From: Deltaproteobacteria bacterium RIFOXYD12_FULL_55_16
Lineage (GTDB): Bacteria; Desulfobacterota; Desulfobulbia; Desulfobulbales; Desulfurivibrionaceae
Direction of reading: 5' to 3'
NCBI GenBank assembly: GCA_001799255.1
Contig: MGTC01000035.1
Coordinates: 1 to 33,353 of the forward strand
DNA length: 33,353 nucleotides
Of this stretch, positions 8,308-13,362 are shown piece after piece. The position numbers and the translations under genes are program-made. Under the pieces are notes generated by a model, which worked only from the letters and a program-made list of their open reading frames with translations, had not been told where the DNA came from and searched no databases. How positions within the stretch are numbered: position 1 is the stretch's first letter; every line of letters begins with the position of its first letter.

Positions 8308-8748
8308 ATGGAAATGTGGCTTGGCCCTTCTGATTTCAACGAAATACTCGCGGATGGCGAGGGGATGCACGTAGCGTTCAAGGACGCCCGCAGCTGGTCG
8401 CCTGATTCATTTTTCCGTACAATCTGCGCCTTTCTGAACACCTTTGGCGGCACCATCTATCTTGGGGTTAACGCTGAGGGCACGGTTATCGGGGTGGCTC
8501 CGCAGGCCGTGGCCCAGATAAAAAAAGAGATCGTCAAGCTTGCCCGCAACCGGCGGTTGCTTGATCCGCACTTTCCGCTCTCTCCCCATGAGTTTGCCTT
8601 TGGCGACAAGATTGTCATCGCGGTGCAGGTGCCGCTCAGTTCCCAGATTCATCGGCATGGCAGAAGAATCATCTTCCGCAGCGCAGAGGGGGATTATCGT
8701 CTGCGCGAGACACCCCTTAAATCGCCGGGCTGTCCACCCAGAGATTGA
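8308..8748 (+). CDS. Small AlbA_2/Schlafen-like (divergent AAA_4) putative nucleic-acid-binding domain protein
   Basis: GEGMHVAFKDARSW...TICAFLNTFGGTIYLGVNAEGTVIGVAP...: resembles the AlbA_2 pattern (GEGxxxEFK, FLNTxGGxxxxGVxxxGxxxG); only this domain is present. Confidence 0.6.
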   Translation: MEMWLGPSDFNEILADGEGMHVAFKDARSWSPDSFFRTICAFLNTFGGTIYLGVNAEGTVIGVAPQAVAQIKKEIVKLARNRRLLDPHFPLSPHEFAFGDKIVIAVQVPLSSQIHRHGRRIIFRSAEGDYRLRETPLKSPGCPPRD

Positions 8749-8753
8749 GGGAA

Positions 8754-8782
8754 TTGCGCAGGCAAGCTGCTCAACCCAGCTT
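8754..8782 (+). repeat. Dispersed 29-bp repeat, copy 1 (TTGCGCAGGCAAGCTGCTCAACCCAGCTT)
   Basis: 28/29 match to the reverse complement of 17635-17663. Confidence 0.8.
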
Positions 8783-8885
8783 CAACCCGGGTTCACCCTA
8801 TTTCACAGCAAAAACACTCGCTTCCTGCCTGCCCACACTGATTGCAGATTGCCAAAGTATCCCCCGGCTGGTAGTATCATGCCCC

Positions 8886-11564
8886 ATGAACCAGCCGGAA
8901 CCTGTTTATCTCATCGACGCCAGCGCCTATATTTACCGGGCTTACCACGCCATCGCCCCGCTCACCAACAAGAGCGGTCTGCCCACCCATGCCGTTTACG
9001 GGTTTACCAATATCCTCCTTAGGGTTCTCCGGGAAAAGGCGCCCCGGTTTCTCGGCATCGCCTTTGATGCGCGGGGGCCGAACTTTCGCCATGAAATGTA
9101 CCCGGCCTATAAGGCAAACCGCCCCGCCATGCCCGACGACCTTGCCTGCCAGATCCCCTACATCAAGGAGATCGTCGCCGCCCACAATATCGCCAGCCTG
9201 GAACGCCAGGGCTACGAGGCTGACGATCTGCTGGCCTCTGCGGCCAGAAAACTCGCGGCCCATGGCCATCCGGTGATCCTGGTCTCAGGAGACAAAGACT
9301 TGCTGCAGCTGGTTTCAGAGCAGATCACCGTCTGGGATCCCATGCGGGACGTGTTCATGAGCCCGGACGCGGTGCGGACGAAATACAATATCCCACCCCC
9401 GCAGCTTCTTGATTTTTTCGCCCTGGTGGGCGACAGCTCGGACAACGTGCCAGGGGTGGCGGGCATCGGCCCGAAAACTGCGGAAAAGCTGATCAATCAA
9501 TATGGTACGCTGGAAGGCTTATATCAAAAGATTGAAACGATCCCTCAGGCAAAGCTCAAGGAAAGGCTCCTGGCCAATCGGGAAAACGCCTTTCTCTCCC
9601 GGCGGCTCATTGCCCTCAGGGAAGATCTTGCCTCCCCGGAGCTGAAGGAGTACGAGACCTCTGAAGCCAACGAGGAAAAACTCCAGGAGCTTTACGGCCT
9701 TCTCGATTTCAGCCGTCTGCTGAAGGCCAGGCCCTCCGTGGCCGTTGCCCTGGAAAGCAAGGGGTTCCAGCTGATCACCACGGAAAGCCAGCTTGAGAAG
9801 GCCTGCCAACAATTGGCCCAGGCCCCCTTGCTGGTGCTGGATACGGAAACTACCTCGCTTGATCCGCGGCTGGCCGAACTTGTGGGCCTCTCCCTCTGCG
9901 GCGCCACCGAGGAAGCCTGGTATCTGCCCATTGGCCATCGGGATGCTGCCGGAAACCTCGTGCCCAACCAGTTGCCCCTTGCCCTGGTTCAAAAACATCT
10001 GGCCCCGCTTTTTTCTGATCCCCAGCTGCCAAAGCTTGCCCACAACCTCAAATTCGATCTGCCTATCCTGGAAAATCATGGCCTCCGCCTGCGCGGCCCC
10101 TTGTGGGATACCATGATCGCCTCCTATCTTCTTGACCCCTCTCGCCGTTCCCAGAAGCTCGACGACCTGTGCCTGGAGCTGCTAGGCCTGCGGTTGACCA
10201 GTTTTGCTGAGGTTACCTGCGGCGACAAGCGGCCAGACAGTTTTGCCTATGTCGCCCCGGAGGCGGCCAGAGATTATTCCTGTGAGGATGTGGCAGGCGC
10301 CTTTCTCCTCTGGCAACAGTTTCGGCCCCAGTTGGAACAGCTTGGCCTCTGGGAGCTTTTCTCCGACCTGGAGATGAAGCTGGTTCCCATTCTGGCCCAG
10401 ATGGAACAGGCCGGGATCACCGTGGATCAGGCCCAGCTGCGCTGCCTGTCTGTGGATTTCGGCCAGCAACTGGCCGAGCTGGAAAAGACCATCTATGCCC
10501 TGGCCGGGGAGGAGTTCAACATCAATTCCACCCGTCAGCTCGGTGAGATCCTTTTTGCCAAACTGGGTCTGCCCCAGGGCCGCAAAACCAAGACCGGTTA
10601 TTCCACCGATATCAAGGTACTGGAAGGTCTGGCCAGACAGCACGATCTGCCTGCGGCGATCATGGCCCACCGGAACTTAAGCAAACTCAAGAACACCTAT
10701 GTGGACAGGCTGCCGGAGCTGATCCATCCCAGTACCGGACGGGTTCACACCTCTTTCAACCAGACCGTTACCGCCACTGGCCGCCTGAGCAGCAGCAATC
10801 CCAATCTGCAGAACATCCCGATCCGTACCCCAGAGGGCCAGAAAATCCGGGCCGCTTTCGTGGCCGCGCCTGGCCAGCTCTTTTTGTCGGCGGATTATTC
10901 GCAGATCGACCTGCGGGTCATGGCTCATTATGCCCAGGATCCGGCTCTGCTTACCGCCTTCCGTGCCGGCAGCGACGTCCACAACCAGACTGCGGCCGAG
11001 ATCTTTCGGATCAATCCGGCCTTTATCTCGCCGGAGATGCGGCGGGTGGCAAAAACCATCAACTTCGGGATTATTTACGGGATAAGCGCCTTTGGTCTTG
11101 CGGCCCAGCTCAACCTGAGCCGCAAGGAGGCGGCCACCTTTATCGACCGTTACTTCGCTCACTATGCCGGGGTGAAACGCTTCATGGAAGAGATTGTCGC
11201 CAAGGCCCGGCAGGATGGTTTTGTCACCACCCTGCTCAATCGCCGCCGCCTGTTGCCCGACATTAACAGCGCCAACAAGGCCAGTCGCGAATTTGCCGAG
11301 CGCACCGCGATCAACACCCCTATCCAGGGCACGGCTGCCGACATCATCAAGCTGGCCACCATCGCCGCCACCCGACGGCTCAGCGAGCAAGGCCTTGGTG
11401 CCAGGCTCCTGCTCCAGATTCATGACGAGCTGGTTTTTGAGGTTCCGCTCTCAGAAATCGAGGCAACCGGGGCCGTGGTCAAGGAGGCCATGGAAGGAGT
11501 CATGCGCCTTGACGTACCTCTGGTGGTGAACACGGTGGTGGGGGAAAACCTGGCCAAGGTGTAA
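8886..11564 (+). CDS. polA: DNA polymerase I
   Basis: 5'-nuclease N-term (YLIDASAYIYRAYHAI), 3'-5' exonuclease (LVLDTETTSLDP), polymerase motifs (SADYSQIDLRVMAH, RRVAKTINFGIIYGIS, LLQIHDELVFEVP). ATG 8886 preferred over 8745. Confidence 0.96.
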   Translation: MNQPEPVYLIDASAYIYRAYHAIAPLTNKSGLPTHAVYGFTNILLRVLREKAPRFLGIAFDARGPNFRHEMYPAYKANRPAMPDDLACQIPYIKEIVAAHNIASLERQGYEADDLLASAARKLAAHGHPVILVSGDKDLLQLVSEQITVWDPMRDVFMSPDAVRTKYNIPPPQLLDFFALVGDSSDNVPGVAGIGPKTAEKLINQYGTLEGLYQKIETIPQAKLKERLLANRENAFLSRRLIALREDLASPELKEYETSEANEEKLQELYGLLDFSRLLKARPSVAVALESKGFQLITTESQLEKACQQLAQAPLLVLDTETTSLDPRLAELVGLSLCGATEEAWYLPIGHRDAAGNLVPNQLPLALVQKHLAPLFSDPQLPKLAHNLKFDLPILENHGLRLRGPLWDTMIASYLLDPSRRSQKLDDLCLELLGLRLTSFAEVTCGDKRPDSFAYVAPEAARDYSCEDVAGAFLLWQQFRPQLEQLGLWELFSDLEMKLVPILAQMEQAGITVDQAQLRCLSVDFGQQLAELEKTIYALAGEEFNINSTRQLGEILFAKLGLPQGRKTKTGYSTDIKVLEGLARQHDLPAAIMAHRNLSKLKNTYVDRLPELIHPSTGRVHTSFNQTVTATGRLSSSNPNLQNIPIRTPEGQKIRAAFVAAPGQLFLSADYSQIDLRVMAHYAQDPALLTAFRAGSDVHNQTAAEIFRINPAFISPEMRRVAKTINFGIIYGISAFGLAAQLNLSRKEAATFIDRYFAHYAGVKRFMEEIVAKARQDGFVTTLLNRRRLLPDINSANKASREFAERTAINTPIQGTAADIIKLATIAATRRLSEQGLGARLLLQIHDELVFEVPLSEIEATGAVVKEAMEGVMRLDVPLVVNTVVGENLAKV

Positions 11565-11609: not shown

Positions 11610-11656
11610 GTTAAAAATTATTTTCTGCATTTTGGGGCAGAAAATAATTTCGTTAA
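11610..11656 (+). other. Long AT-rich hairpin after polA
   Basis: GTTAA-AAATTATTTTCTGC-ATTTTGGG-GCAGAAAATAATTT-CG-TTAAC: 14 bp + 5 bp stem with 2-nt bulge; no following T-tract of classic terminator type. Confidence 0.75.
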
Positions 11657-11753
11657 CGCATTTATCCCGTTTATCGGGGTTAGGATAACGCTCTTTTTTG
11701 TAGTCAAAACAGCCTTCTCATTCGGAGCTGGAAAGAAACGTAAACTACGAACC

Positions 11754-11878
11754 GTAACTGTTCAGCAGTGCCGCAGATGCTTACCCCTACGGGGCATAAA
11801 ATCCAGAGGCCCGCGAAGTGTGCTATTGCACATGAGCGGGCTGATGACAACGCAGATGTGGTGCTGCTGGACAGTTAC
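11754..11878 (+). ncRNA. Candidate structured RNA domain / leader of the ppiD-like gene
   Basis: 21-bp closing stem 11754-11774 / 11858-11878 (17 WC + 4 G-U pairs), internal hairpins ATGC-tta-CCCC-tac-GGG-GCAT (11777-11797) and GCCCGC-gaa-GTGTGC-tatt-GCACAT-ga-GCGGGC (11809-11841). Confidence 0.6.
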
Positions 11879-11892
11879 CATACAGGTGACAC

Positions 11893-13362
11893 ATGCTCGA
11901 CTTTATGCGCCGCAAGGCCCAATCGACCTATATCCAGGCCGCCATTCTGATGATTGTCCTGGTCTTTGTTTTCTGGGGGGTGGGGCAAAGTCAGAAAGGC
12001 GGCCCCAATGCCATTGCCACGGTTAATGAGCAAAGCATTTCCGCGCAGCAGTACCAGCGGGTCTACAGCCAGACCCTTGGCCGGTATCAGGAAAAATTCG
12101 GCGGCGCCATACCCGCAGGATTGATTGAGTCTCTGAACCTGAAGCAGCAGGTGCTGAACCAGATGATTCAGGAGCTGGTCATGCAGCAGGGGGCAAAGGA
12201 AGCCGGTCTGATAGTGGGCAGCGATGAGGTGCGCAAGGTTATCCAGGGGATGGAGGCTTTCCGGGAAGAAGGGATCTTCAAGCTCGACCGTTACAAAAAG
12301 CTGCTGGCCTCCTCAAGAATGAACACGACTGATTTTGAAAACAATGTGCGCAACGACCTGCTTCACAGCAAGATTCTGGCCCATCTTTCCCGGTTCGCCA
12401 GGATCTCGGACAGCGAGCTCAAGGAACGTTTCGCCTTTGACCACGATCAGCTAAAACTGGAATATGTCGCCTTGACCGCAGATGATTTCCGGGCTTCAGG
12501 CCCGGTTGCCGAGCAGGGACTGGTTCCTTTTTTTGCCGCCCGCAAGCAGGCCTACCTGACCGAGCCGCAGGTCAAGCTCAGATACCTCACCTTTCTTGAG
12601 GAACAGGCCATACCCGGCCGCCCGTTGAGCGAGCAGGGCAAGGATCTTGCTTTCCAGCGGGCAAACAAGGCCTACGAGGGGATCATCCAGGCTGGCAGCC
12701 TGGATAAGTATGCGACAAGCGCGGCAACCCAGGTACAGACAACCGATTACTTTACCCAGACCAATCCTCCCAAGGCCCTGGCTGAACAGCCTGTGCTGCT
12801 AAAAACCATCTTTGGCCTGAAAAAGGGCGAGCTGAGTTCATTGCTTGAGATCAAAGGCGGCTACGCCATTTTCTTCCTTGACGAGGTGAAGGATCCCCAG
12901 GTGCCGCCGCTGGCTGAGGTTCGCGCCAGGGTGGAAAAGGATTTCCTTGACGATCAGGCCCAGACCCGAGCCAAGGAGGCCGCCTCTGGTATGCTGGCCC
13001 AGGCAAAAAAAGAAGGCTCCCTGGCCGTTGCGGCGGAAAAGAGCAAAAGCCACGTCCTCACCACCTCTTTTTTCAGCAGAAGCCAGCAGGAGACCAGCGA
13101 CCTGCCCGGCCCTCTTGCCGCGCAAGGCCTGAAGCTCAGTGCCGCCTCACCCTACCCCGCCGAGATTATTGAAAATGGCGGAACTTTCTATGTGCTTCAT
13201 TTCAAGGAAAGCGCCCCGGCAAGCGAAGAGGTCTTTGCCAGTCAGAAAGAAGCGCTCCGGAAAATGCTGATTCAGGAAAAACAACAGCAAGTCATGAGCG
13301 ACTGGCTGGCTTACCTGCAAGGCAGGGCCAAGATCACCACCGACAAGAAATTCATGGAATAA
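11893..13362 (+). CDS. SurA N-terminal domain / PpiD-like periplasmic peptidyl-prolyl isomerase
   Basis: MLDFMRRKAQSTYIQAAILMIVLVFVFWGVG (single N-terminal TM), SurA_N-like FINGE-type segment, parvulin-like middle (EQPVLLKTIFGLKKGELSSLLEIKGGYAIFFLDEVKDPQVPPLAEVRARV). Confidence 0.85.
   Translation: MLDFMRRKAQSTYIQAAILMIVLVFVFWGVGQSQKGGPNAIATVNEQSISAQQYQRVYSQTLGRYQEKFGGAIPAGLIESLNLKQQVLNQMIQELVMQQGAKEAGLIVGSDEVRKVIQGMEAFREEGIFKLDRYKKLLASSRMNTTDFENNVRNDLLHSKILAHLSRFARISDSELKERFAFDHDQLKLEYVALTADDFRASGPVAEQGLVPFFAARKQAYLTEPQVKLRYLTFLEEQAIPGRPLSEQGKDLAFQRANKAYEGIIQAGSLDKYATSAATQVQTTDYFTQTNPPKALAEQPVLLKTIFGLKKGELSSLLEIKGGYAIFFLDEVKDPQVPPLAEVRARVEKDFLDDQAQTRAKEAASGMLAQAKKEGSLAVAAEKSKSHVLTTSFFSRSQQETSDLPGPLAAQGLKLSAASPYPAEIIENGGTFYVLHFKESAPASEEVFASQKEALRKMLIQEKQQQVMSDWLAYLQGRAKITTDKKFME

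Follow-up and report, generated by a model that had tools for sequence, protein, structure and literature searches.

What is the long hairpin that sits in the spacer between polA and ppiD, on the coding strand and 14 nt before the ppiD ATG? In the window, by which we mean the whole stretch of 33,353 nucleotides analysed here, a sequence-only reading had taken it for a cis-regulatory leader of the PpiD/SurA-like gene and had named a MITE as the alternative. Our analysis indicates that the hairpin is very probably a copy of an IS66-type MITE that inserted before ppiD and is now truncated. The features of the region are:

8745–11564, + strand: DNA polymerase I (polA), the upstream neighbour, assigned by Pfam.
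11724–11753, + strand: remnant of the MITE left arm; the outer left terminal inverted repeat (GTAACTATCCAG-type) and the left target duplication are gone from this copy.
11754–11775, + strand: inner left repeat, the 5' arm of the long hairpin, defined by sequence, fold and the alignment of 31 copies from the same genome.
About 11782–11800, + strand: optional 19-nt module with a CCCC/GGGG hairpin, defined by alignment and absent from the short core form.
11808–11842, + strand: apical hairpin GGCCCGC-GAA-GTGTGC-TATT-GCACAT-GA-GCGGGCT, conserved in the family, with compensatory changes.
11857–11878, + strand: right terminal inverted repeat, the 3' arm of the long hairpin, defined by the fold and ending ...GGACAGTTAC at the insertion boundary.
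11879–11892, + strand: original target sequence with the ribosome-binding site CAGGTGAC, common to the empty sites in the alignment.
11893–13362, + strand: PpiD/SurA-like peptidyl-prolyl isomerase (SurA_N_3, Rotamase_2), the downstream neighbour, assigned by Pfam.

The left boundary near 11724 is accurate to +/- 4 nt and was obtained by aligning empty sites of congeners with the filled sites of two of them, G011 and G013. The right boundary at 11878 was set by the empty sites and by the 8-bp duplications of other copies.

The fold of the hairpin is far above chance and asymmetric between the strands. Its arms, GTAACTGTTCAGCAGTGCCGC (11754–11774) and GTGGTGCTGCTGGACAGTTAC (11858–11878), form 21 pairs, four of them G-U, and one added A-U pair extends the helix to 22 bp. 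The minimum free energy of the + strand RNA is -75.1 kcal/mol, against -39.2 +/- 3.4 kcal/mol for dinucleotide shuffles (z -10.5), whereas the - strand reaches -54.3 kcal/mol (z -4.9). Sequence and fold thus bear out what had been described at 11754–11878: the 21-bp helix with its four G-U pairs on the + strand, the strand asymmetry, and the inner hairpin (our apical hairpin, 11808–11842) with its GAA/GA internal loop. A further hairpin reported at 11777–11797 does exist as a stem, but it is a 4-bp CCCC/GGGG pairing within the optional 19-nt module, which most family members lack. The long hairpin itself had been placed exactly, but the left arm was overlooked, and the inserted unit begins about 30 nt further to the left. 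A scan of the spacer for consensus promoters and terminators found none. The same spacer contains a perfect 14-bp inverted repeat, AAATTATTTTCTGC / GCAGAAAATAATTT, at 11615–11650, in a stretch that is missing from the congeners read.

If the hairpin were a dedicated leader RNA of the PpiD/SurA-like gene, riboswitch-like or autoregulatory, its position before the ATG on the coding strand and its strong + strand fold would be as expected. The Rfam scan gave no match to the element, either at the gathering score or at E<=5; this agrees with the earlier remark that no known riboswitch class was recognised in it, and it speaks against a leader. The sequence-only reading had also called for a search for further genomic copies. 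BLAST against the window's own genome (G000) found at least 40 scored places, spread over many contigs, and a covariance model, R1, gave 113 hits there, which correspond to about 85 distinct loci after removal of opposite-strand duplicates. These copies adjoin unrelated genes in both orientations, a result that points to a MITE and not to a leader.

The family extends well beyond this genome. R1 is positive in 17 of 17 genomes of the genus, with 20–147 hits in each of the 16 congeners, and at E<=1e-5 in 73 of 97 genomes and 38 of 46 genera across the order. At the stricter E<=1e-9, 6 of 148 genomes of a phylum sample are positive, the window's own included. Exact matches to the core among named records come from Desulfobulbaceae, Desulfurivibrio and Deltaproteobacteria MAGs. 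The copies are dispersed, have no coding capacity and measure 106–300 bp overall, the longest being about 300 bp. The hairpin family is apparently an undescribed, order-wide, high-copy family of IS66-type MITEs.

The history of the ppiD site bears on the leader reading as well. We read the spacer before ppiD in 16 genomes of the genus, counting that of the window. The site is empty in 13 of them, reading ...acagccttctcatt..tacacaggtgacac-ATG with small variations and no insert; these include G012, the nearest relative of G000, and G005, the sister of G013 (support 100/99). It is filled, at the same place, only in the window's genome, G011 and G013. The shared occupancy would be compatible with a leader, but an element absent from most relatives is not a required one. 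We regard the gene-specific reading as already refuted by the copy number and the empty sites, and give a dedicated leader very little probability.

The filled sites are instead those of an insertion. The copy in the window has a core of the longer type, has lost its outer left repeat and starts near 11724. In G011 and G013 the left arm reads ATTCGAAACCGGAAAGGATCGTAAACAACAAAAC. These two inserts probably descend from one event, since a T to G change in the right arm is private to them and their left arms are nearly identical. The flanks of the G013 insert, CATTAATA / CATCATCA, look like a decayed duplication. Because filled G013 is sister to empty G005, loss of the element or exchange of alleles has probably occurred at this site. 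The downstream protein also varies within the genus: it has 489 aa in G000 and G012, and most other congeners have a form of about 631 aa. Matches to it by tblastn break near residue 250, and about 135–140 aa of the middle are absent in G000 and G012.

Where does an intact element end? From the flanks of all copies in the window's own genome, the true left terminus of intact copies lies about 45 nt outside the inner left repeat. Intact copies are about 150–210 bp long and carry GTAA...TTAC terminal inverted repeats; the outer left repeat reads GTAACTATCCAGCTTAATGCCGG... and, in a second subfamily, GTAATCGTTCACC.... The MITE alternative was therefore correct in proposing a non-autonomous element with terminal inverted repeats, but the 21-bp repeat that it took for the left end is the inner one. 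Measured from the outer end, an 8-bp target duplication with at most one mismatch is present in 43 of 186 distinct copies and is perfect in 23 (for example CTTTGCCT, CTGTAATA, ATACCATA and AAGGTGTT), against an expectation of about 0.2 in 186 copies (shifted control, 0.0011 per element). The remaining 143 copies have no intact duplication, which counts against the MITE reading. The window copy is among them: its own left end is lost, and terminal repeats with a duplication are ascribed to it through the family. The sequence-only reading had named multiple genomic copies with target-site duplications as a finding that would refute the leader, and this is what the family displays. In a few copies (the 106-bp form, e.g. 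L164, GTTTACTT) the duplications lie at the inner repeat, which may occasionally be used as an end. In G101, which belongs to another family, all four 154-bp copies examined have perfect duplications (tgcgaatt, accggaat, cttttttg and actcgttt) and look recent. We also considered integron attC sites and dropped them, as the copies have 8-bp duplications and are dispersed, not arrayed.

The GTAA ends and the 8-bp duplications point to IS66. The IS66 transposase domain PF03050 is present in 104 of 245 genomes of the order, and classical IS66 members there have GTAAGCG... ends and perfect 8-bp duplications. As a parent, classical IS66 was rejected: it has the GTAA and the 8-bp duplications in common with the MITE, as well as a CATCT motif around position 20, but it lacks the 15-nt end. 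For this reason the single-ORF group was sought, and it matched. ISDge4, an active IS66 member of the ISBst12 (single-ORF) group, has ends GTGACTACTCAGCA / GTAACTGCTCAGCA and an 8-bp repeat (PMC12898284), and GTAACTGCTCAGCA is verbatim the end of MITE copies such as L041. Within the order, shorter-ORF IS66 members have ends GTAACTATTCAGC, GTAACTACTCAGC or GTAACCGTTCACC, several with perfect 8-bp duplications. A close counterpart, L313, is a 1729-bp (1.73-kb) element in G046, a distant genome of the order. It has ends GTAACTATCCAGCTT and GTAACTATCCAGCTC, an 8-bp duplication GAATATTT and one 475-aa ORF that encodes an IS66 transposase (NF033517 transpos_IS66, 3.4e-86; PF03050, 5.7e-47), and its end is identical to that of the MITE over 15 nt. 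G046 also holds 94 exact matches to the 15-nt end and true R1 copies of the MITE. A second miniature element in this genome (L319, L322; about 195 bp) combines the GTAACTATCCAGCTT end with an interior that is G+C-rich and unlike that of the MITE; several unrelated miniature elements seem to make use of a single set of IS ends.

The MITE thus shares terminal repeats of GTAACTATCCAGCTT or GTAACTGCTCAGCA type, and 8-bp duplications, with single-ORF elements such as ISDge4 and L313, which we call ISBst12-like on the basis of the single ORF and the end sequence, not of transposase phylogeny. It differs from them in having no transposase gene and a length of 106–300 bp, and the IS loci tested do not contain its palindromic core. 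No large autonomous element with MITE ends was found in about 1 Mb of loci examined or at the leftover left ends in G000. Against the IS66 assignment, PF03050 was found in none of the 17 genomes of the genus; these are mostly drafts, which makes the absence provisional, and the present mobiliser is missing from the genus, lost or unassembled. A literature search, mostly outside subscription papers, found no IS66-derived MITE.

A long hairpin with strand asymmetry might also suggest a REP/RAYT-like or other single-strand (Y1/HUH) palindromic element instead of a DDE-transposase MITE. The terminal inverted repeats, which run to the very ends, the 8-bp target duplications and the ends in common with an IS66 element argue against this reading, and we consider it hardly credible. 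Y1 transposition is not known to make target duplications.

The core of the element is unusually RNA-like. The G-U-only pattern noted for the single hairpin is real and family-wide in the copy alignments, and so is covariation. Among 102 distinct rows, pairs with a Watson-Crick majority have 121 minority G-U cells and 44 A-C cells, and wobble-majority pairs are all G-U on the + strand, with none A-C. In 180 of 184 copies the + strand gives the better fold, with a median of -66 kcal/mol against -47 kcal/mol for the - strand. Compensatory changes are found both in the ends and in the apical hairpin, which lies outside the terminal inverted repeats. Where a copy has both left repeats, its right end is closer to the inner left repeat in 22 cases and to the outer terminus in 5, with 15 ties (p 0.0015). 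The copies behind these counts are related, not independent, and the counts are uncorrected for relatedness. Since the right end follows the inner repeat in this way, the covariation is mainly that of the hairpin and not of the pair of transposon termini. A long conserved core with internal compensatory changes exceeds what transposition alone should need.

These features would be explained if selection also preserved the MITE core as a folded RNA (or as single-stranded DNA), with the + transcript serving the element or its host, for example through RNase III-type processing, mRNA insulation or stabilisation. The retained G-U pairs favour selection on the folded + strand to some extent, and there are other bacterial MITEs that are transcribed and exert their effects through folding of the RNA (PMC3733652). 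Against this, correction of one palindrome arm by the other during replication can yield compensated pairs without selection. Two copies, L032 and L038, are partly turned into perfect palindromes, which gives some support to such palindrome-templated correction. Between co-directional genes, antisense copies outnumber sense copies 28 to 13 by crude ORF calls, an excess that speaks against a general read-through role. On balance we lean against selection on the fold, while treating it as a serious possibility. The more specific proposal remains tentative and, in our judgement, rather unlikely. It holds that the core of this order-wide IS66-type MITE is kept as a strand-specific folded RNA, and that the element survives because G-U pairs let its + transcript fold perfectly although the DNA is an imperfect palindrome; the inner left repeat and the right end would coevolve as the two arms of a helix, independently of the transposon termini.

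Returning to the window, the insertion of a MITE suggests the following course of events. An IS66-type transposase would cut and insert the MITE in trans, as the shared ends suggest. The copy would have entered the polA-ppiD spacer just upstream of the ppiD ribosome-binding site, and its outer left end was presumably lost after insertion. It may have been tolerated before ppiD because the ribosome-binding site was left free and because the element lies in its strongly folding orientation in the probable 5' untranslated region. A ppiD mRNA that starts in the conserved stretch upstream of the insertion would contain the element in the stable orientation, with CAGGTGAC free. Folding of other bacterial MITEs is reported to affect neighbouring mRNAs (PMC3733652), and by analogy the element may alter the processing or stability of the ppiD mRNA; such an effect on ppiD is plausible.

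In size, intergenic dispersal, terminal inverted repeats, long hairpin and gene-adjacent positions, the family is similar to ERIC, NEMIS, YPAL, RUP, bcr1 and Nezha (PMC3733652). It differs from them in sequence, ends and host range, and in having two nested left ends, swappable hairpin modules and no Rfam match. The Chunjie MITE of Geobacter uraniireducens, as summarised in PMC10969869, is 178–235 bp long and intergenic, with many partial copies; it is similar to our family in size range, partial copies and intergenic location, a comparison made with the summary description. The present family adds a high-copy and apparently unreported MITE to an order of the former Deltaproteobacteria (Desulfobulbaceae/Desulfurivibrio-type records), together with its likely parent IS group. 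It also carries a warning: a hairpin that covaries and precedes a gene can be an inserted element, and the first things to check are copy number and empty sites. With hundreds of copies of known polarity, the family is well suited to telling selection on RNA folding apart from palindrome-templated mutation.

The copies also vary in their modules. Alignment of 31 copies from the window's genome resolves a 106-nt core and optional modules, which are either the 19-nt CCCC/GGGG hairpin (window type, 10 of 31 copies) or a TGTCAATCGTCGGCAG...GCCGAC hairpin on either side of the apical hairpin. Copies differ in whether the module TGTCAATCGTCGGCAGnAGTGCCGAC lies on the left or on the right side of the apical hairpin (L033, L038 and L045 compared with L019, L024 and L025), and the module occurs as tandem variants in L046, as if this hairpin were itself a small mobile or recombining unit. 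Longer copies of about 230–280 bp (L263, L265, L266 and L268) have GAGCTATAGCTGAGTTGAGCAGCTTGCCTGCTCAAACGAAACTTATACCC... in place of the apical hairpin, and this sequence is also found near ppiD in G014 (L062). At one locus of G000 (L260, C24:32369), a lone MITE left arm of about 45 nt, lacking both core and right end, lies immediately before an ORF.
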